From: Gemmatimonadota bacterium
GTDB lineage: Bacteria; Gemmatimonadota; Gemmatimonadetes; Longimicrobiales; Gaopeijiaceae
Length of the DNA stretch: 43,932 nt
Assembly (NCBI GenBank): GCA_022822425.1
Contig: JAJEBS010000174.1
Coordinates: 1-43,932, forward strand
Direction: 5' to 3'
Shown: positions 2,906 to 43,932 of the stretch, in pieces
How the letters are laid out: each line of letters starts with the position of its first letter
Numbering within the stretch: the first letter of the stretch is position 1
Program-made: the position numbers and the translations under genes
The notes under the pieces: model-generated
Databases searched by the model: none
Told to the model about the DNA's origin: nothing
Seen by the model: only the letters and a program-made list of their open reading frames with translations

Positions 2906-5483
2906 CTAGACGGGCGGCCGGATAGCCAGCCGGTCACGGATCTCCTGATAGACTGGGATTCCATCGCCGGCTTCGATGGTAACGGCCAACCCGTATCGGA
3001 CAGCCTCATCCAGCCTTCCAGCCTGCTCCTTGCACACGACTTGGAGCGCCAATTCGCCATCACCTACGAACGCGATTGCCTGATCGCCCTCGTATCGTTG
3101 ATGAAAAAGCGTACCGCGGGGAATCGACTTGTCGCTTGGCTGTAGCTTGGTCCTTGCTGTTCCCAATTCTCTTTCGAAATCCCCTTTCACCTCCAGCCTG
3201 GCCCTGCGATAGGCCAAGTGTCGGACGTTGACGGGGGAGAACCACGCGAGCGTGACCGTGAGCGCACGTGGCTCCTCCACTCGCTCGAGGCTGGCCGGAA
3301 GCGGTAGGCGACAGGTAGCTATCTGTTTGTTTTCGATTCGACCATAGCCGATCAGCGTCGCGCGCTCAGAGGTACACGTCAACGCCTCGTCAACCCGAGG
3401 GACACCGTAACCGATTACTCGCGCAACGTTGTCATCACGAGCTACATAGTGTCCCGGGTATAGATCTCGAAGTCTCGACGCCACGTCCTCGTCCCACGAT
3501 GCCCGGTGAACCAGAAGAGCCTTGACCACCACCGAATAGTACATCGGGTCAACGTCGGCCAGGATGGCTCCGTTCTCTGGATCCATTAGAGCATCGAACA
3601 GACGGTGCGCGGATCGTGTCGCCAGTGCTGTAGCAACGCTCGTGCCACTTTGGTGTCCTTCCCGGTTTGTGCGACTGCGGATCCGGCACAGCCACCCTGA
3701 TGCCAAAGCTCGAGCCGGCTTGTGCGCTCCGGATGAGAAGTTGGTCACCTTGGGGGAGTGGCAACACCCGCTCCCGTCCTCCAGGCAGCAGGATTTCGGG
3801 CTTTATCGCCTTGCGGTGACCAAGACCCATTGCAGAAGTGATGTTCGGTAGTGAACTGCTCACATATGGGTCTATAGAGACGCCAGCGGAAGGCGAGGAC
3901 TCGCAGGCTTCGTCGTGGCACGCTCCGACAGTCAGCACGTTCAGTGCTTCCGCAGGTGACAGAAGTGTACGTTGAGATCGTTGTTCGCCGAGTCCCACCA
4001 TTACGGCCGTCTCTCGGTCTTCGGCAGATGCTTCTTCAAAGTCCGTTACAGCATTGTATCCAGGGACGGGCAAGGGATCGTTGACGTTCCCGGCGCTCAC
4101 CAGGAAGAGGATGTTGTAGCGATGAGCGAGATAGTCGAGCAACCTGGCCCAGGGGCTGATCTGGCCCGCGTAAGGACGCCGCTTGTCGCCGAGGGACAAG
4201 TTGACGAGAAACGCATCTGGAGCAGTCGGTGCAGTGCCATCGCTACCCTCCTTCATCCGCAGTACGGCGCGATATATGGTATCGATGAGTAGGCGGTCCT
4301 GTTGAAACCGTTCTGTTGAGAGATTGTCGGGGGCATACAGGACCGGATGTATATGAAGAAGGCGGTCCAGTGGAGCTTCCTGAAGATGGCGGTCTCCATG
4401 CAGGATCAGGGATGCCATCGCCGTTCCGTGCCAGCGCCGCGAGGCCAAGGTGAGGTCCTCGAGGCCATCCGGATCGTCGACCACAACTCGACCGTCCAGC
4501 AGACGATGGCGTTGAATGGGTACACCGTCCAGGAGAGCCGCGATGGGTCTTTGATGCGGTGAGGGAGTTGGACCATCCGGAGCGGCTCCGACCGTAAGAT
4601 CTCGGTCCAGCCTGTCGTATGATGGGTGGGACTGAGGCCGGACGAACATGATGTCGTCACATATTGCAAGATTCGCAAGGTCGCGCCGGACCAATCGGGC
4701 GATCTCGTCGCGGGGCAACTCCACGAGCGCGGCTTCATATGCGATTTCCGGAATGGAGGCGGCCTGGAGGACGGAGCCACCCAGGCGGCGCACCAATCTT
4801 GCCAACTCGCGTTGCGATGACCTGCAGCGGGCGGCGCTGGAAGACGCCCAGAGTTCGACTTCAGTCGAGATCAGCGCTCCACCATCCTCGGCGAGCGCTT
4901 GTTGGAAGTCGGTAACGAGGTCATCCGGTATGCGATCCTCAGGTCCCCAAGGCCGGAGATCCCTGAGTTGATCGAACACCTTGAACCACTGGCCGAAGTT
5001 ATCCTCCGGCTCAAGGCCATCCTGATATCGCTTCCAAAGACTCAATAGGTGCCGTAGAGCCGTCACATCCGGCATCGCTGTGTAGACGCGGCCTCCGACG
5101 GGCTTGTCCAAACGTCGCTGGCCCCTGGTCTGCACACGCGTATCGACAACCCAAAAATCGTCATCTGGTTCGAATTCTACCTCCTGCTCAGTCAAATACT
5201 CCAAGCCTCGGATCCACTTGCAAGCAGCTTCGAAGTCGCCTACGGAACCAGCGAGTTCGAATACAAGTACCCTCTCGGGTGCAAGTCCGGTTGGATCAGC
5301 GCGCAAGGTGACGGGATCCCGCCCCAAGTCGAAGATCTCCTGTAGCCGCCTGAATTTGGGGCCGATACGTTCACCTTGGCGCTGTCGACCAGGGAGCCGT
5401 GGCAGCGTTGGCGGAAATCCCCTTCCGGGCGGGAGAGGCTGCAACCTGGGCGATGGAAGTGGAAGCAACGGATATTCGGCCAT
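2906..5483 (-). pseudogene. ietS: Subtilisin-like S8 peptidase of an ietAS-type defence pair, split by a +1 frameshift
   Basis: Two minus-strand frames together give one subtilase. The upstream frame (from ATG 5483) carries catalytic Asp319 (ALLDGV), His352 (WHGTAMAS) and the oxyanion Asn466 (LVSAGN). The frame ending at 2906 carries the catalytic Ser in SGTSVATAL, whose codon is at 3638-3640. They differ by one base. Removing one base from the TTT run at 3649-3651 (AAA on the coding strand) gives a continuous TPSGTSVATAL, so a single-base insertion is the simplest cause. The intact protein would be about 858 residues, with a long N-terminal region of unknown fold and a C-terminal domain after the Ser motif. 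It starts 12 nt after ietA. As sequenced the protease cannot be active unless the frameshift is an assembly error. The family is known from the Gao Iet anti-phage system. Confidence 0.8.
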
Positions 5484-33762: not shown

Positions 33763-34749
33763 ATGGAAACAAGGCGTCCCACCACTCCGGAGGCCGAGGA
33801 GATCCTCGGACTCTACTACCCCGTGCTCGACCACGGATTCGTCTCGCTGGTCGACTACATGGGAAGCGACGAGAGCATCGAGCACGCCGCGCGGGTCAGC
33901 TACGGCTACGGAACACGCAAGCGCAGTGCCACCCGCGGCCTCATCCGCTACCTGCGCCGGCATCTGCACACCACGCCGAGCGAGATGGTCGAGCTCAAGT
34001 TCCACTGCGCCATGCCGATGTTCGTGGCCAGGCAGTGGGTGCGGCACCGGACGGCTTCCATCAATGAATATTCGGGTCGGTACAGCCTGATGCCGCTCCT
34101 CTTCTACAGCCCCGACGCGGAGAACTTCTCGCTGCAGAGCAGCGTCAACAACCAGGGAAGGGAGGCGGACGCCGCCCCGGAGCGCCTGTACGGGGATGCC
34201 ATCCGGCGCTGGCAGGAGGTGCGAGCCTCCGCTTCGCGCGCGTACGCGTGGATGGTACAGGAGGATGTCGCGCGCGAGCTGGCCCGCATCGACCTGCCGC
34301 TCTCGACCTACACGCAGTGGTACTGGAAGATCGACCTGCACAACCTGCTGCACTTCCTCACGCTGCGCGTGGACGACCACGCCCAGTGGGAGATCCAGGA
34401 GTTCGGGCGGGTGATGGCCGGGATGCTGAAGCGCGTGGCCCCGCTGAGCTTCGAGGCGTGGATCGACTATCAGGTGTGCGGCGACAAGCTGAGCCGGATG
34501 GAGATCGAAGCGCTGGCGAGGCTCCTGGAGCCCACGGAGGACGGCGGGCTGGCGGTACGCGGAGATCGCGACAGCCTCGGGTTCGACGAGTTGCGCGAGA
34601 TGGGGATGGCGCCGCGCGAGATCCGCGAGCTCGCGGGCAAGATCCGGCGCCGGAAGGTCCCCGACTTCGATCTGGATCTTTCGCGTTTCCGGAGCGCCGA
34701 GGACGTGGCCGCGGAGATGCACGAGGCGGTGCCCGGAAACTTCGAATAG
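33763..34749 (+). CDS. thyX: Flavin-dependent thymidylate synthase
   Basis: This 328-residue enzyme makes dTMP from dUMP using methylene-tetrahydrofolate and reduced FAD. The diagnostic ThyX motif RHRTASINEYSGRYS is at residues 94-108. The protein is longer than the typical 220-250 residues because of C-terminal material after about residue 250 (EPTEDGGLAVRGDRDSLGF onward). The ATG at 33763 lacks a clear ribosome-binding site; a frame upstream is open, so the start is only moderately sure. It is divergent from the aldehyde dehydrogenase (122 bp between starts). Confidence 0.92.
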   Translation: METRRPTTPEAEEILGLYYPVLDHGFVSLVDYMGSDESIEHAARVSYGYGTRKRSATRGLIRYLRRHLHTTPSEMVELKFHCAMPMFVARQWVRHRTASINEYSGRYSLMPLLFYSPDAENFSLQSSVNNQGREADAAPERLYGDAIRRWQEVRASASRAYAWMVQEDVARELARIDLPLSTYTQWYWKIDLHNLLHFLTLRVDDHAQWEIQEFGRVMAGMLKRVAPLSFEAWIDYQVCGDKLSRMEIEALARLLEPTEDGGLAVRGDRDSLGFDELREMGMAPREIRELAGKIRRRKVPDFDLDLSRFRSAEDVAAEMHEAVPGNFE

Positions 34750-37043: not shown

Positions 37044-39488
37044 CTACTCCGCCTGCCCGCGCCCGGGCCGCGGGCCACCAGGGGATCGTTCCGGTTCCGG
37101 GGGCGAGTCTCGCAGAACCCGGGCAGGCGGCTCCGCGGGGCGGTCGTCCGGCGCGGGCATCAAATAGCCCACTCTTCGCTCGTTGACGATGTAGGCTGGC
37201 CGTGCCCCGTCCTCCCCCAGCTTGTGGCGGAGCCTTTTCACAACGGCATGCACCAGCCTCGGGTTGGCGGAGCCCCGATAGCGAGTGCCCCAGGCGCGGC
37301 GCAGCAGGGCGCGGTACGTCAACACTCGTCCGTGGTTGGTCGAGAGCACGCGCAGCAGCTCGTACTCGGTGACGGTGAGTTCCAGTGGCCGGCCGTCGAG
37401 GGTCACCCGGCGTCGATCGTAGTCGATGGCCAGCGCTCCCAGCCGGAAGGATGCGGGCTCGGCGCGGCTGCGCAGTGCCGCCCGGATCCTCGCCGTCAAC
37501 TCCGTCGCCGAAAACGGCTTGACGATGTAGTCGGCAGCCCCGGCCTCGAGAGCCCTCGCGATCGTCTCGTCCCGCCCGTAGGCCGAGACGAAGATGACGG
37601 GCACGTCGGCCAGGTCGGGAACCTGCTCCATCAGCTTGATGCCGTCGGTCCCGGGCAACATCAGATCGAGCAGGACCAGGCGGGGCTTCTCCGCGCGAAT
37701 GAGGCGCGGCAGTTCCCGGGGCTCGCCGGTTGACACTACGGCAAACCCTGCCGCGCTTAGCGTATCCCGGACATGGAGCAGCGCTTGCGGGTCGTCATCC
37801 ACCACCAGAATGGGTGTCGCCTCCCGACCTGGGCGCTCGCGTCGCCGTGAGGGGGATTCCGACACCTTCACGTCGCCGCCGGCCCTCTCGACGGTCGGGA
37901 TGGTGAACGTGAACCGGGCGCCCCGGCCCTCCCCGTCGCTCCGCGCCCAGATGCGCCCTCCATGCGCCTCTACCAGTCCCTTGCAGATGGCGAGGCCCAG
38001 GCCGGTCGCCAGAGCGCGCCTTCCCTCACCCGCACCGATCCGCTTGGCGAACAGGTGCGCGAGCCGCTCGGGCGCGATGCCTTTGCCATGGTCGGAGACG
38101 GAGATCTCCACGTGGACACCGTCCCGCCGCGTCCTGATCTCGATGGGGGATGACGCCTGAGAGTATCTCGACGCATTCGAGAGGAGGTTGCTGAGGACCT
38201 GCACGATACGCTGCCGGTCGACCATCACCTTCGGCAGGTCCGGAGAAAGGTCGACGCGCACGCCGTGTCGGCCGCCGGCGTTCAGGAACGTGTTCCTCGC
38301 CCGGTCGATCAGCTCCCCGACGTCCGAGGCTTCGGACGAGATCGACAAGGTCCCCGTCGCGATTCGCTCCACATCCAGCAGGTCGCCCATGAGGACGTTC
38401 ATGTTGTCGGCATGCTCGTCGATGATCCGGAAGAATTGCAGCATCTCCGCATGAGCGAAGCGCGTTGCGGCGGCGAGCACCGTGGTCGAAGAGCCCTTTA
38501 TGGCTGCAAGCGGCGCGCGCAACTCGTGGCTCACGATCGCCAGGAACTCCGTCCGCATCCGCTCGAGTTCGTCAAAGGGCGCCGGGTCCTGCATGGTGAG
38601 CACGACCGAGTCGACGCTACCGTCGGCCTCGTGGATCGGCGTCACGTTGACGAGCGCCTTCACGCTGCGCCCGTCCGGAACCGAAAGCTCGATCTCCTGG
38701 GCACGCAGTGTCTCGGCGCTACTCAGCTCGTGCGCCAGCGGGAATGCCTTCAAGGCGATCTCACGCCCGTCGCCGAGCCGGCAGGTAACCGACTCCAGCA
38801 GCTCCATCGTGAACCCGCCCGGCGTCCCCAGGCCCCGGACGATTCGTTTCGCCTCCCGGTTGATCGACACCGGGTTTCCGGTTCTGGCGTCCAGGACCAC
38901 CACGCCGACCGGTGACGTATCGACGAGGGTTTCCACCTTCGCCCGCGCACGCTGCTCGTCCCGAAAGGTGCGGGCGTTGGCGATCGCCGTCCCCGCTTGC
39001 GATGCCAACGGCACGAGAACCTCTTCGTCCTCGCGGGTGAACTCGCCGCCCCCGTCCTTTCCGACGAGAAAGACGCTGCCGACGTAGATGCCCCGATGAC
39101 GGATCGGCGTGCCCTGCAGCGTCCCGGATGGAAGCGCGATCGGCGAAAAACCGAACGACCGGAGCCAGGTGGGCAGGTCTCCGATCCGCACGGCACCCGG
39201 AAGGTCCCGGAAGTGCTCGAAGACCCGGAGCCCATCTTCCCACTCCTCAAGCTGCCGCAGCTGCTCCCGTGTCAGGCCGGAGGCGAGGTAGGGCCCGGGT
39301 TCGCCGGCGTCGTCGACGGTAGCAATCAGGCCATGGCGGGCACCGGTCAGGGCGCGGGCGCTGTCGACGACTTCCTGCAGGACCGTCTCGAGGTCCAGGC
39401 TCGCGTTGATGCGCAGGATCGCGCCGCAAAGTTCCGAGATGCGCTCCCGCGGCGCGTCGATTCTCGGTGCGTCCGGGTGCTCTGTCAC
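37044..39488 (-). CDS. One-polypeptide two-component system: GAF-PAS-histidine kinase-receiver-winged helix
   Basis: This 814-residue soluble protein contains, in order, a GAF domain (about 25-178) and a PAS-like domain (about 183-300). HisKA follows with phospho-acceptor His321 (SHELRAP), then HATPase with N-box NLLSNAS and G-boxes (about 425-532). The receiver has acidic pocket DDD 564-566, phospho-acceptor Asp608 and Lys657, and an OmpR/PhoB-type winged helix ends the fold (about 683-775). Kinase, receiver and DNA-binding output are thus on one chain, so phosphotransfer can be internal and the protein can act directly on promoters. There is no membrane helix, so it should sense a cytoplasmic or diffusible signal. 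The start is GTG 39488 with GGAGG 8 nt upstream. A Pro-rich tail follows. Confidence 0.9.
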   Translation of the reverse strand: MTEHPDAPRIDAPRERISELCGAILRINASLDLETVLQEVVDSARALTGARHGLIATVDDAGEPGPYLASGLTREQLRQLEEWEDGLRVFEHFRDLPGAVRIGDLPTWLRSFGFSPIALPSGTLQGTPIRHRGIYVGSVFLVGKDGGGEFTREDEEVLVPLASQAGTAIANARTFRDEQRARAKVETLVDTSPVGVVVLDARTGNPVSINREAKRIVRGLGTPGGFTMELLESVTCRLGDGREIALKAFPLAHELSSAETLRAQEIELSVPDGRSVKALVNVTPIHEADGSVDSVVLTMQDPAPFDELERMRTEFLAIVSHELRAPLAAIKGSSTTVLAAATRFAHAEMLQFFRIIDEHADNMNVLMGDLLDVERIATGTLSISSEASDVGELIDRARNTFLNAGGRHGVRVDLSPDLPKVMVDRQRIVQVLSNLLSNASRYSQASSPIEIRTRRDGVHVEISVSDHGKGIAPERLAHLFAKRIGAGEGRRALATGLGLAICKGLVEAHGGRIWARSDGEGRGARFTFTIPTVERAGGDVKVSESPSRRRERPGREATPILVVDDDPQALLHVRDTLSAAGFAVVSTGEPRELPRLIRAEKPRLVLLDLMLPGTDGIKLMEQVPDLADVPVIFVSAYGRDETIARALEAGAADYIVKPFSATELTARIRAALRSRAEPASFRLGALAIDYDRRRVTLDGRPLELTVTEYELLRVLSTNHGRVLTYRALLRRAWGTRYRGSANPRLVHAVVKRLRHKLGEDGARPAYIVNERRVGYLMPAPDDRPAEPPARVLRDSPPEPERSPGGPRPGRGQAE

Positions 39489-40125: not shown

Positions 40126-41277
40126 ATGAACCCACAGGATCTGTTCGACCGCGGGGTGGTGACGCTGCAGGAGGCCGCGCTAGGCAAGGCGCGCTGGTCG
40201 GAGGCGGCGTTGCTGATCAGCGAGATCAGCGGGACGAGGGGCAACGCCCTCGCGTTCGCCAGCGGTCGCACCCAGGTTGACGCGCACTTTCTGTTCCTGC
40301 GGCTGTGCCACGAGGGCGAGCACCGCGAGGACCTCGAGAGGGAGTACTTCAGGAAGTACTGGGCACGGGACGAGAGCATTCCCCGCGTCGGCCGTCTGCC
40401 GGACGGAGTGCTGGTGCCCACCGCCGATCTGTACACGAGACGGGAGAGGGAGAGGTCGCCGGCGTACACCGAAGCGAGGCGCAAGGCGGGGATGCAGAAC
40501 GGCCTCAACGTGCGGCTGGACGGGCCGGGCGGATTGCACATCGTACTGAGTCTCGCGGACTCACTGGAACCGGGAGGCTGGACGTCGGCCCAGTTCTCCG
40601 CGGTCCGGCGCCTGCTGCCGCACGTGCGCCAGTTCGTGCGAGTACGCAAGACGCTCACCGATGCGCGGGCACTGGGACGCTCGCTCCTAGCGTTGCCCGA
40701 GAGCAGCCGCTGCGGCGTCATCCAACTCGACCGGAACGGGCGGATCGTCGCGGCGAACGACCGGGCCTGCGGTCTGCTGCGACAGGGCGAAGAGCTGTCG
40801 GACCGGGACGGCTTGCTGAGCGCCACGGCGCCTCGGCACAACGGCGAGCTGCAGCAACTGCTGGCTCTGGCGCTGCCCCGGCTCGGCGGGCCCGGGTCGT
40901 CCGGCTCGATGACGATCGAGCGCCCGTCGTCCCGCACGAATCTGGTCGTGCACGTTACTCCCGTGTCCGCGCGCCAGCGGGACTTCCGCGCCGGGCAGGT
41001 CGCCGCACTCGTCCTGGTCGCCGACCCGGAGAGCATGCCCAGGATCGACGCCCGCCTGGTGCAGGCGGCGCTCGACCTGACCCCGGCCGAGAGCCGGCTG
41101 GCGGTCATGGTGGCCGCCGGGCGACACGCGCGCGACATCGCTGCGCACACGGGACGCAGCGAAGCCACGGTGCGCTGGCACATACAGAACATCTTCCGCA
41201 AACAGGGCATCTCGGGTCAGGCGGACCTGGTGCGGCGCGTATTGTCGCTGGCGGGCTTTCCCGACTTCCGTCCCTGA
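40126..41277 (+). CDS. LuxR-type helix-turn-helix transcriptional regulator with sensory N-terminus
   Basis: This 383-residue regulator has a GerE/LuxR helix-turn-helix at about residues 314-375 (LTPAESRLAVMVAAGRHARDIAAHTGRSEATVRWH split over two helices). The middle looks PAS-like (about 195-250, GVIQLDRNGRIVAANDRA) and the N-terminal 180 residues could be a GAF-like sensor. There is no receiver aspartate pattern, so it is unlikely to be a classical response regulator. It is divergent from the hybrid kinase-regulator. Ligand and targets are unknown. Confidence 0.83.
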   Translation: MNPQDLFDRGVVTLQEAALGKARWSEAALLISEISGTRGNALAFASGRTQVDAHFLFLRLCHEGEHREDLEREYFRKYWARDESIPRVGRLPDGVLVPTADLYTRRERERSPAYTEARRKAGMQNGLNVRLDGPGGLHIVLSLADSLEPGGWTSAQFSAVRRLLPHVRQFVRVRKTLTDARALGRSLLALPESSRCGVIQLDRNGRIVAANDRACGLLRQGEELSDRDGLLSATAPRHNGELQQLLALALPRLGGPGSSGSMTIERPSSRTNLVVHVTPVSARQRDFRAGQVAALVLVADPESMPRIDARLVQAALDLTPAESRLAVMVAAGRHARDIAAHTGRSEATVRWHIQNIFRKQGISGQADLVRRVLSLAGFPDFRP

Positions 41278-41291
41278 CGCCGGACCCACCC

Positions 41292-41320
41292 GGGCCTCGC
41301 CGTACCTCCAGTCGGCGGCC
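41292..41320. repeat. 29-bp hairpin repeat, copy 1 (beyond the tnpB-like gene)
   Basis: This 29-bp sequence matches the copy at 41475-41503 except for a two-base swap in the loop. Each copy folds into a hairpin: GGC/GCC and CGCCG/CGGCG stems with a 2-nt bulge and a 10-nt loop. In tnpB orientation this copy lies 97 bp past the stop codon, where the guide end of an omega-RNA would be expected in IS200/IS605 elements. Confidence 0.75.
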
Positions 41321-41322
41321 CA

Positions 41323-41350
41323 ACGGGGACGATGCGGTTCTCGTCCCCGT
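41323..41350. terminator. Strong hairpin between convergent genes
   Basis: ACGGGGACGA (41323-41332) pairs perfectly over 10 bp with TCGTCCCCGT (41341-41350) around an 8-nt loop. It lies 45 bp past the LuxR-type gene and 66 bp past the convergent tnpB-like gene, so it could end transcription in either direction. There is no U-tract on either side. It could instead be part of an omega-RNA fold. Confidence 0.45.
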
Positions 41351-41416
41351 GCTGATTCGTTCCGACCTTCGCAGACGACTACAGAGCTTGCGACCTTCGC
41401 GTCCGCGATTCGCGTT

Positions 41417-42424
41417 TCAGCGACCGGCTCCCCGGTCTCCGCGCGCGTCGGGGAATGCCGTCCCCGGTTTCGGCGGGCCTCGCCGTACCCTCAGTCGGCG
41501 GCCGTGCCACTCCGCCTTGTATTCGAGCTGGCGCAGCAGTTTGCTGCTCGCGCCTTCGACTTCGATCTCGCGGGCCTCGTGCACGACGCCGGTCGTGGCC
41601 TTGTGCTGCAGGTCGCCCTGGCGGTTTCTCACCTTGCGCGCCTGGTTGCGCACGAGGGCCAGGGTGCGCTTGCGGCCTTCGGACGCGAATTCACATCGCG
41701 CCAGTCGCCGTTCGAGCCTCGCCAGGCGGCGTCTCGCATTCCGCAGCGTCTTGCTCTCGCGGAACACGTGGACGGGCTCTCCGTCGACCGACACCGTGAT
41801 CTCGTCGGCCTTCTGGCGGACCGATGCCTTGTCCGTCTCCGGCTCGACGGGAGTGAGCGGCGCGCACTCGAACAGGCAGGAGAGCATCCACCGGTGTCCC
41901 GCATCCAGCCAGACCCGGCCCGAGAGCAAGCCACGCGTCTTGCGCCCGGGCCGCCCGGAGAGCCTTCCGCGGGGGAGATTTCCGCCCTTCCAGCGCATCC
42001 AGCCGTACTTGGGCAGCCACACCCGGTTGCCTTCGAAACGGATGCCCTGGTTGCTCAGGTAGATGCCGGGCTCCCGGCCGATCGTCTTGATCCGCGGGAG
42101 TCCGCCTTTCCCGCGCCCGCCGGCCTTCCGGAACGAGTTGCGGAAAGCCACGTCGAGATCGGCAGCCACCCGGTAGATGGCACTGGCAGGGCACGCCGGG
42201 CGCGGTGCCCGGTCGCGCCAGTCCCGGGTCAGCGCCCGCAGCTCGGCCATGGTTGGCCGCCGTCCGGTCCTACCGTAGTGGAGGTGCGATTTGGCGAGCA
42301 GCGTGTTGGAGAGCTCGCGCAGGCCGTTCCTGCACCGGAGCAGCGCCGAATCCTGCGCGGGACTCGGGTAGAGCCTGCCGCGCCAGCCCACGTAGCGCCG
42401 GGTGACGGATGCGTTCGCGCTCAC
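41417..42424 (-). CDS. TnpB-like protein lacking most catalytic residues (IS200/IS605-derived)
   Basis: This 335-residue protein reads as TnpB: the N-terminal signature RGRLYPSPAQDSALLRCR (about 16-32), the middle LPKYGWMRW, the positive helix LRNARRRLARLERRLAR and the block LLRQLEYKAEWHGRRL (about 296-311). By alignment to the TnpB pattern the RuvC-I Asp (GIDxG) is replaced (SVRQK, Arg203 at the Asp position). RuvC-II Glu290 is kept (EIEVEG), the segment between RuvC-II and the LEYKAEW block is shortened, and the CxxC zinc finger and RuvC-III Asp are absent. It should not cut DNA. GTG 42424 overlaps the stop of the upstream regulator gene by 4 nt. It could be a decaying transposase-associated gene or a nuclease-dead TnpB acting as an RNA-guided binder; no tnpA is nearby. 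Confidence 0.75.
   Translation of the reverse strand: MSANASVTRRYVGWRGRLYPSPAQDSALLRCRNGLRELSNTLLAKSHLHYGRTGRRPTMAELRALTRDWRDRAPRPACPASAIYRVAADLDVAFRNSFRKAGGRGKGGLPRIKTIGREPGIYLSNQGIRFEGNRVWLPKYGWMRWKGGNLPRGRLSGRPGRKTRGLLSGRVWLDAGHRWMLSCLFECAPLTPVEPETDKASVRQKADEITVSVDGEPVHVFRESKTLRNARRRLARLERRLARCEFASEGRKRTLALVRNQARKVRNRQGDLQHKATTGVVHEAREIEVEGASSKLLRQLEYKAEWHGRRLRVRRGPPKPGTAFPDARGDRGAGR
41475..41503. repeat. 29-bp hairpin repeat, copy 2 (inside the 3' end of the tnpB-like gene)
   Basis: This is the near-identical partner of 41292-41320, 183 bp away in the same orientation. It encodes the unusual Arg-rich stretch right after the last recognisable TnpB block. That suggests the original C-terminus was replaced or deleted at this repeat. 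Confidence 0.75.
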
Positions 42425-43323
42425 GTGGCCTGCTCGAAGGGCACCCGCGTGGGAACCGCTTCGTTCCTGTTCGACCCGTTGGCGGAGGGGGGCTCCCACA
42501 CGGAATCGACCCACTCACCGAATCGTCCGACGACCCGTTGCGGATCCTCGGCCGCCGCCGCGAGCGTGCAGCCGGCAAACCGCGAGAAGTTGATTTCCAG
42601 CGTGCGCCGCCGCAGCCCCACCTGGTCGGCGACCGCGGCCCAGCCGGCTCCGGCGCGAGCGCGAACGGCCCAGAGGAGGACGGCCCAGTTCATGAAGTCC
42701 TTCAGACGGCACCGGAGCGGCGCGTCTTCTCTCCAGTACTGCCTCAACGTGGACCCGGCCAGGTTGACCTGACCCGCCAGACGCCGGACCGAATTCGCCG
42801 GCACGAACCGGGTCGCGGCAGCGTCGTCGTGCAGGCCGCAGACCCGGCTTATCGCTTCCCTGACGGACGGCCTGAAGGACGGGTTGGAAAGCAGCCTCAA
42901 GCCGAGACGGCGCATCGGATCCGGGCTCGGCCTCCCGAATTCCTCCAGAACTTCCACGAGGCGGCTTTCCACCTCGTCCGCCCATACGACCCGCAACCCG
43001 CCGGAGCGAAGCGGTTCCAGGCGCCGCAGGCACTCGGCGGAGATCCGCGCCACGACGACGCAGGGCGGATTGAGAGGACCGGAGGCGGACCGCAGCCACT
43101 CAACGTCGGCGTCGGAGCAGGTGGCGAGCCCGTATACGACCGGGCAGACGCTCATGGACGGGGCCAGGAGTTCTCCTCTCGAACGCACCCGCTGGATCGA
43201 TGCACCGGCGAGCGCCCGCTGCAGCAGGTCTCCAAGCTCGCTGTCCGTGCAGTACAGCGCGTAGATGAGGCGCTCCGATCTGATCTGTGCCTCCCGGTGC
43301 AGGACGAGCGATCGCGATGCCAT
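42421..43323 (-). CDS. AraC-like helix-turn-helix regulator
   Basis: This 300-residue cytoplasmic protein has a C-terminal region (about 205-285) that resembles an AraC-type helix-turn-helix (GWAAVADQVGLRRRTLEINF then FSRFAG). The N-terminal half (about 15-130) has alternating strands and helices like a degenerate receiver or sensor domain, but no clear phospho-acceptor Asp. The assignment is from pattern, not from strong motif identity. GAGGG sits 3 nt before ATG 43323. Its stop overlaps the start of the tnpB-like gene by 4 nt, and it is divergent from a lipoprotein gene with a sigma-54 promoter, which it might regulate. Confidence 0.55.
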   Translation of the reverse strand: MASRSLVLHREAQIRSERLIYALYCTDSELGDLLQRALAGASIQRVRSRGELLAPSMSVCPVVYGLATCSDADVEWLRSASGPLNPPCVVVARISAECLRRLEPLRSGGLRVVWADEVESRLVEVLEEFGRPSPDPMRRLGLRLLSNPSFRPSVREAISRVCGLHDDAAATRFVPANSVRRLAGQVNLAGSTLRQYWREDAPLRCRLKDFMNWAVLLWAVRARAGAGWAAVADQVGLRRRTLEINFSRFAGCTLAAAAEDPQRVVGRFGEWVDSVWEPPSANGSNRNEAVPTRVPFEQAT

Positions 43324-43644: not shown

Positions 43645-43660
43645 TTGGCACCACTTTTGC
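43645..43660 (+). promoter_or_regulatory. Sigma-54 (RpoN) -24/-12 promoter
   Basis: TTGGCACCACTTTTGC matches the sigma-54 consensus: GG of the -24 element and GC of the -12 element are separated by exactly 10 bp, with TTGGCAC and TTTTGC flanks. It points at the lipoprotein gene (ATG 43732), giving a predicted 5' leader of about 60 nt. Sigma-54 promoters need an AAA+ enhancer-binding activator, which is not in the window. Confidence 0.75.
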
Positions 43661-43731: not shown

Positions 43732-43932
43732 ATGACCCGACTCAAGCTCCTTGCCACGGCAACGCTGATGGCCCTGACCTTCACCGCCTGCGACGAGGGC
43801 ACTCCGCCGCCTGTGGAGCCCCTGCCGCCGCCGACTCCCGTGGGGACGATCTCCGGGACGGTGACGATCGAAGGGACGGCCGCCAGCGGCATCACCGCCA
43901 CCCTGTCGTCCGGTGCGACCACCACGACGGGG
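43732..43932 (+). CDS. 5' end of a lipoprotein with a carboxypeptidase-regulatory-like domain (runs off the right edge)
   Basis: The frame from ATG 43732 stays open to the window edge (67 codons). AGGAGG at 43722-43727 is 4 nt upstream. A lipoprotein signal ends in FTAC (Cys20), followed by a Pro-rich spacer (GTPPPVEPLPPPTP) and the start of a beta-domain (VGTISGTVTIEG) like carboxypeptidase-regulatory or Ig-like surface repeats. It is probably surface- or periplasm-exposed and controlled by sigma-54. The function is unknown because most of the protein is missing. Confidence 0.8.
   Translation, partial: MTRLKLLATATLMALTFTACDEGTPPPVEPLPPPTPVGTISGTVTIEGTAASGITATLSSGATTTTG

Follow-up and report, generated by a model that had tools for sequence, protein, structure and literature searches.

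Nuclease-dead TnpB genes suggest a domesticated RNA-guided gene switch beside giant surface-lipoprotein genes in the Palauibacter group

The stretch of DNA analyzed here (the window; 43,932 nucleotides) is contig C42 of a 4.4-Mb, 339-contig Gemmatimonadota genome that is 89% complete. On its minus strand, a regulator gene (42421-43323; 300 amino acids) is followed by an overlapping TnpB-like gene (41417-42424; 335 amino acids, GTG start), and the pair is divergent from the 5' end of a giant lipoprotein gene. A first-pass annotation had placed both genes at these positions, which hold, and had likened the TnpB-like protein to TldRs, which were reportedly described by Wiegand in 2024 as fliC-associated, nuclease-dead TnpB-like repressors; it gave an ordinary decaying IS605 fragment as the alternative.

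Homology to TnpB, a property expected of any TldR, is secure on several comparisons. The window protein matches the NCBIfam family guided_TnpB (E = 3e-19, below the family's curated cut-off), and a profile of its closest relatives, designated clade I, matches ISDra2 TnpB in the PDB (E ≈ 1e-18). Foldseek searches with a low-confidence structure model (predicted local distance difference test [pLDDT] score, 57) matched 8h1j (E = 9e-15) and ranked TnpB first, followed by dCas12f. In alignments to ISDra2 TnpB and to TnpBs with intact motifs, Arg203 of the window protein occupies the column of the RuvC-I Asp, the RuvC-II Glu is retained as Glu290, and the part containing RuvC-III and the zinc finger is missing; an active TnpB would have a complete DED catalytic triad and a zinc finger, which this protein does not. 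These alignments bear out the losses that had been read from motifs by eye, together with the presence of an LEYKAEW region, and add the retained Glu, which had not been mentioned.

The same losses recur in related proteins, which fall into three clades. At the RuvC-I Asp position, clade I has Arg in 14 of 15 aligned proteins and His in the other, clade II has Arg in 7 of 7, and clade III has Ala in 3 of 3, so that this residue is substituted in all 25 and the RuvC active site is destroyed, as in TldRs. The RuvC-II Glu is present in 14/15, 5/7, and 3/3 proteins, respectively. All 22 aligned proteins of clades I and II are missing the RuvC-III/zinc-finger part and also the stretch following RuvC-II, while clade III retains the zinc finger. 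A FastTree phylogeny of 33 sequences groups clades I and II apart from the rest (support, 0.998) and splits clades I to III from ordinary TnpBs (support, 0.943).

When the TnpB-like protein was used to query 59 genomes, matches were found in 11: 10 of the 11 genomes of the host genus, the exception being G006 (67% complete), and one genome elsewhere with a weak match to an ordinary TnpB. Clade I comprises 18 copies (at least 74% identity) in those 10 genus genomes, and, counting every kind of match, as many as 7 occur in one genome; because the G004 and G010 loci are near-duplicates, counts that include both are not independent. Of 298 Gemmatimonadota genomes searched, 14 have a match at ≤1e-40; 8 of these belong to the same genus, 5 to another genus of the family, and 1 to another family. 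A contig scan returned 23 loci, 14 of them at 72 to 88% identity and the other 9 being ordinary TnpBs at 22 to 30% identity or a short fragment. The 14 close loci come from metagenome-assembled genomes (MAGs) titled Gemmatimonadetes (3), "Candidatus Palauibacter" (1), BD2-11 clade (3), and Gammaproteobacteria (7); the host genus is probably "Candidatus Palauibacter" or near kin. The Gammaproteobacteria-titled MAGs that carry this Gemmatimonadota family (L114 to L118, L123, and L124) are apparently mislabeled.

The regulator is predicted to consist of a receiver-like N-terminal domain and an AraC-type helix-turn-helix (HTH) region. Searched alone against Pfam and NCBIfam, the window regulator has no match; HTH_18 is weakly matched in 8 of 18 family members (best E = 0.0027). 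A structure model (pLDDT, 72) gave weak Foldseek matches to FixJ, StyR, GadX, and Rns (best E = 2e-3), with none, GadX and Rns included, at an E value of 0.001 or better. At the junction with the TnpB-like gene the window reads ACG-TGA, and the GTG start begins one base ahead of the regulator stop, giving the 4-bp overlap (42421-42424, minus strand) claimed by the first-pass annotation. This overlap recurs at 14 of the 16 clade I junctions that were readable (G007_C111 left out), with GTG, ATG, or TTG as the start codon; in the remaining two, from near-identical loci, the TnpB start lies 5 bases past the regulator stop (+5). The pairing itself is likewise conserved in relatives: a regulator precedes 17 of the 18 clade I copies, one of the 17 being truncated where its contig ends. 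The regulator is shortened in six loci, with the N-terminal ~118 residues gone and the HTH part kept, and the first residues of the G003 regulator are in a different frame.

Selection on the gene and an omegaRNA-like scaffold at its 3' end

The TnpB-like frame is open across the match in all 18 clade I copies. In 14 chosen clade I pairs, the dN/dS ratio (omega; NG86, codons 1 to 295) is 0.14 to 0.40 in 13 and 0.68 in the fourteenth (dS, 0.013) and is therefore below 1 in every pair, the pattern of purifying selection that had been suggested as a check. The frame disruptions that would have spoken for decay amount to a frameshift touching only the last ~20 residues of the window and G003 copies.

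Divergence at four-fold sites is 0.17 to 0.38 across codons 1 to 280, and the last four blocks fall to 0.085, 0.035, 0.117, and 0.079; two frameshifted, misaligned rows enter the third. The window and G003 copies differ at 2 of the 69 nucleotides (nt) lying between the shifted stop and the end of the scaffold, compared with 25 of 156 four-fold sites (P = 0.0026); the corresponding P values are 0.1 for the window and G005 and 0.0033 for G003 and G005. Just past the usual stop, 5 of 9 pairs show no difference over 27 nt, and the other 4 show 1 to 3. Because both the frameshifted tail and the nucleotides past the stop are still conserved, the constraint on the 3' end acts on RNA or DNA, beyond the tail peptide alone.

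Judged by sequence alone, the 3' end is an omegaRNA-like scaffold, after which comes sequence that is variable and guide-like; TldR genes likewise carry a conserved scaffold, either at their 3' end or past it. In the window it spans 41352-41580 on the minus strand (core, 41352-41521; profile match, 41521-41352), comprising the 3' part of the coding sequence and 65 nt past the stop of this copy; in ISDra2, too, the scaffold overlaps the 3' end of the tnpB gene. A search of 33 genomes that scored up to 24 candidates per genome located 20 near-full scaffolds, found in 10 of the 11 genus genomes; 18 belong to genes for nuclease-dead TnpB (dTnpB), and the remaining 2, both orphans, come from near-identical loci of G004 and G010. 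Neither this scaffold nor the multicopy family could have been seen from the window by the first-pass annotation.

Clade I homology stops sharply at GGAACGAATCAG. Within the scaffold, hairpins H1 (GGGG...CCCC; 41450-41465, minus strand) and H2 (GACCGG GGAG CCGGTC; 41422-41437, minus strand) were compared by eye with clade II, which keeps a stem with different arms and loops at H1 and a stem with different loops at H2. A guide-proximal helix (41352-41386, minus strand) has its 5' arm, CTCTG, at 41382-41386 and its 3' arm from 41354, and in the window copy only 3 of the 5 positions pair. The arms read CCCTG/CAGGG in other clade I copies and TGAGT/ACTCA in clade II, which thus retains the scaffold with both arms altered. 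Over 21 sequences, 4.76 of 5 pairs form, versus 3.05 with the arms shuffled, and none of 5,000 shuffles reached 4.76; the statistic rests on five distinct arm pairs from two clades and omits the G004_C28b, G168, and G010 copies (near-duplicates) and G210 (tail off pattern). RNAalifold predicted 63 pairs, with compensatory changes in just 3, and Rfam returned nothing at the gathering score and one chance-level match (E = 0.98).

Several scaffold-like sequences lie outside this arrangement. A second copy of a 30-nt scaffold segment is present downstream of the guide position in the window (41291-41320, minus strand) and in G003 and G005. The orphan scaffolds (L075:12938-13108 and L072:7136-7306) are ~98% identical to a complete scaffold 2 kb away and have their own guide-like sequence downstream and no TnpB gene. 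At L078:8080-9959, three scaffold-like repeats surround a clade III dead TnpB that retains the zinc finger, has Ala for the RuvC-I Asp, and sits upstream of a giant lipoprotein gene, and at L291:2851-2900, as in L292, a 24-nt unit from the scaffold end occurs 2.1 times in tandem right after a clade II dead TnpB.

Giant lipoprotein genes at the TnpB-like loci

Clade I operons are divergent from a gene for a lipoprotein of ~1,500 to 1,600 amino acids. The window holds the contig-cut 5' end of this gene (43732-43932, plus strand), whose full-length relatives carry CarboxypepD_reg and SdrD_B repeats. Upstream of its start lies a sigma-54-type −24/−12 site (TGGCACCACTTTTGC; 43646-43660, plus strand), and sigma-54 is encoded in the genome, in agreement with the earlier description of a sigma-54-controlled lipoprotein. 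The window contains three such sites, versus 0.08 expected; the other two are at 3633-3647 and 33917-33931 on the minus strand. A TGGCAC-N5-TTGC site is present in 13 of 16 aligned lipoprotein upstream regions and absent from L069, L078, and L080. In L069 (G009), the giant lipoprotein does not begin with the signal peptide that is usual for it, and its promoter is incomplete.

With the lipoprotein promoter region as the query, 15 matches were found in 11 genomes, all 15 at regulator-dTnpB loci. Two regulator-dTnpB copies have no promoter match: G007_C111, which begins at a contig end, and G008_C98 (L073:10966-11832), where a contig-cut leucine-rich open reading frame, 85 to 87% identical to giant surface-protein genes found at other loci, abuts a shortened regulator. 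By our own gene calls, and without a matched background rate, a giant surface-protein gene, or its start where the contig or the fetched region ends, lies within 4 kb of the dTnpB gene in 23 of 26 clade I to III loci (a count that leaves out L012, L017 to L019, L023, L025, L028, L029, L291, and L292); the other three are G000_C266 and G007_C111, at contig ends, and G008_C98. Outside the genus, copies adjoin giant genes in 4 of 6 genomes (G112, G210, G273, and G121), and the contigs of G110 and G168 are too short. Like TldRs, these proteins are stably associated with nontransposon genes.

Candidate guides and the case for RNA-guided control

Directly 3' of the scaffold lies a putative guide (CACGGGGACGAGAACCGC...; 41331-41351, minus strand) that varies between copies. 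The sequence after the scaffold differs among paralogs, as guides do, and over the guide and the next ~60 nt, four orthologs have only two variable positions, in a region where four-fold divergence is also low (4 to 7%). A perfect hairpin, CGGGGACG...CGTCCCCG (41324-41349), lies in the candidate guide region and is possibly a terminator shared with the convergent luxR-type gene.

We infer RNA-guided control from these features. In the proposed mechanism, dTnpB would bind the scaffold RNA, produced from the 3' part of the transcript of its own gene, the sequence just downstream of the scaffold would serve as the guide, and DNA would be bound without cutting, as by TldRs. The complex would then repress, or with the regulator redirect, transcription of giant surface-protein genes, and the regulator, which may act on the sigma-54-type promoter, would add control at that lipoprotein promoter between the two divergent genes.

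A number of results weigh against this proposal. The near orthologs G000, G003, and G005 do not agree at the guide position, which makes a guide role less convincing; in both G007_C34 and G009_C23, the luxR 3' end directly adjoins the scaffold. Searches for targets gave 88 weak matches in the fetched loci (best, 16/20), none convincing; in lipoprotein promoters, the best was a 10-nt match of the G001_C60 guide in the promoter of another genome (G004). One set of whole-genome guide patterns gave 27 matches in four genomes versus 32 for the reversed control. Other patterns exceeded their reversed controls (34 versus 15; 18 versus 4, with 4 of the 18 being guides themselves; 502 versus 401), and the places whose context was examined are mostly inside genes: by our own gene caller, for the 34-match pattern, the 20 own-genome places fetched of the 34 comprise 1 guide itself, 17 sites in called genes, and 2 outside, and for the 18-match pattern, 10 of 14 nonguide places are in called genes and 4 outside. 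A shuffled-guide test at the local loci with 15 guides (leaving out those of G002, G003, G005, G007_C34, G008, G009_C23, G110, G168, and G210) gave combined P values of 0.95 and 0.90, and redefining the guide start still yielded no convincing target. The best single case in that test, a match of the G004_C50 guide inside a neighboring giant gene (P = 0.05), was dismissed as chance. The scaffold folds no better than its shuffles (z = +0.67), one clade I copy (G001_C36b) has no preceding regulator, and a mirror-tree comparison shows no significant correlation between the distances of regulators and those of dTnpBs (r = 0.17, reached by 110 of 999 permutations). Finally, none of seven regions from outside the genus has a regulator match, and clades II and III are without the regulator; because these relatives adjoin giant genes all the same, the association with giant genes seems older than that with the regulator.

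Since the target searches were unconvincing, RNA-guided control rests on architecture. In known TldRs, guides of 6 nt suffice (PMC13418256), and guides this short could not be matched to a target by sequence alone. The TldR-type reading of the first-pass annotation therefore stands in part: the protein is nuclease dead, paired with a regulator, under selection, and unlikely to be a product of decay, while the guide target that RNA-guided repression calls for did not emerge.

Very little probability remains for the view that the gene is an ordinary decaying IS605/TnpB fragment without function, carried along with the lipoprotein locus. The frameshifted C-terminal tails of the window and G003 copies, stops within the profile match in clade II copies (G210, G112, and one of G273), and the lack of a guide target would fit it. 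The selection data contradict it. The conserved pairing, the open frames in every clade I copy, the low omega values, and the failure to find an active parent make it unlikely, as do the nucleotide constraint on the scaffold, the conserved overlap, and the loss of the RuvC-I Asp in all three clades. The relatives yielded no active parent: the nearest, clades II and III, are also without this Asp, and two TnpBs of the genus with intact-looking motifs are 31 to 32% identical, so that the full-length active TnpB in sister genomes that would have pointed to simple truncation was not seen. It is improbable, if less so, that regulator, dTnpB, and scaffold form a nonautonomous mobile module spreading as a passenger of lipoprotein loci. 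Several paralogs per genome, G004 and G010 locus copies 15 kb apart, the orphan scaffolds, and transposase-like gene starts near some clade II and III copies (by eye) are what such a module would leave, but no Y1 transposase (TnpA) was found in the window's genome, which was the genome covered by that search; lipoprotein, regulator, luxR-type, and kinase genes are common to many loci across genomes; and viral contigs and phage records hold no close relative.

A rival that we consider unlikely yet worth keeping in mind needs no DNA guide: the dead TnpB, again domesticated, would bind its own conserved 3' RNA, and the resulting ribonucleoprotein would have a structural or autoregulatory role or serve the regulator as a cofactor. 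It would account for a constrained scaffold followed by sequence that differs among near orthologs and has no target, but not readily for the retention of the guide-proximal helix in most copies or for the near invariance of the guide and the following ~60 nt in four orthologs, although the low four-fold divergence there tempers the latter point. Because the loci have a parts list similar to that of known TldRs and csrA-tldR pairs, RNA-guided control of surface-protein genes is in our view the best explanation: a host-domesticated, nuclease-dead TnpB with its own guide-RNA scaffold probably exerts TldR-like control over these genes, coupled to a transcription factor. We put forward only tentatively the further idea that the dead TnpB-guide complex and its dedicated regulator might jointly choose which giant sigma-54-driven surface lipoprotein a symbiont displays, with guides and orphan guide RNAs changing as loci duplicate.

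Related systems frame this proposal. The dCas12f-sigma factor systems, which carry out RNA-guided transcription, also place a dead effector of the TnpB lineage beside a transcription protein (structure 9n9c, by its title), but the partner here is no sigma factor, and Cas12f matches are weaker than TnpB matches. IS200/IS605 TnpB (ISDra2) shares the fold, the N-terminal sequence, and the overlapping scaffold, whereas here the catalytic Asp residues and zinc finger are gone and the genome yields no Y1 transposase. Known TldRs are directed to DNA by a guide, for which a 6-nt seed can be enough, and act as repressors of flagellin genes (PMC13418256). The fliC-associated TldRs resemble the present family in being TnpB derived and RuvC inactivated, with a guide RNA 3' of the gene and a tie to a surface-protein gene (PMC13418256); this family differs in phylum and genes, in the loss of the whole RuvC-III/zinc-finger part, in having a giant lipoprotein instead of flagellin, and in the absence of a found target. 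In the csrA-tldR pairs of Oscillibacter and Flavonifractor, a second regulator is likewise joined to TldR at surface-protein loci, four of them in one strain (PMC13418256), but the partner here is receiver-like/AraC-type, in overlapping frames, rather than CsrA. A search of the open-licence literature found no such system for this bacterial group. If correct, our proposal would add the Gemmatimonadota to the groups in which TnpB has been domesticated for RNA-guided regulation, with a possible stepwise series from clade III (zinc finger present, Ala for Asp) through clade II (C-terminal part lost) to clade I (regulator operon). It would also provide a naturally trimmed dead effector of ~340 amino acids and a testable coupling of an RNA-guided DNA binder with a conventional transcription factor at surface-protein genes.

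Neighboring genes and regulator paralogs

The convergent gene downstream of the TnpB-like gene (40126-41277, plus strand) encodes PAS and LuxR-type HTH domains, and beyond it lies a gene for a hybrid histidine kinase (GAF-HisKA-HATPase-REC-winged helix; 37044-39488, minus strand), both assigned by Pfam searches with the G003 orthologs. Regulator paralogs that are 34 to 45% identical and have no TnpB match occur at L176 to L180 and L182; by eye, nearby genes at L176 to L179 begin like hybrid kinases.
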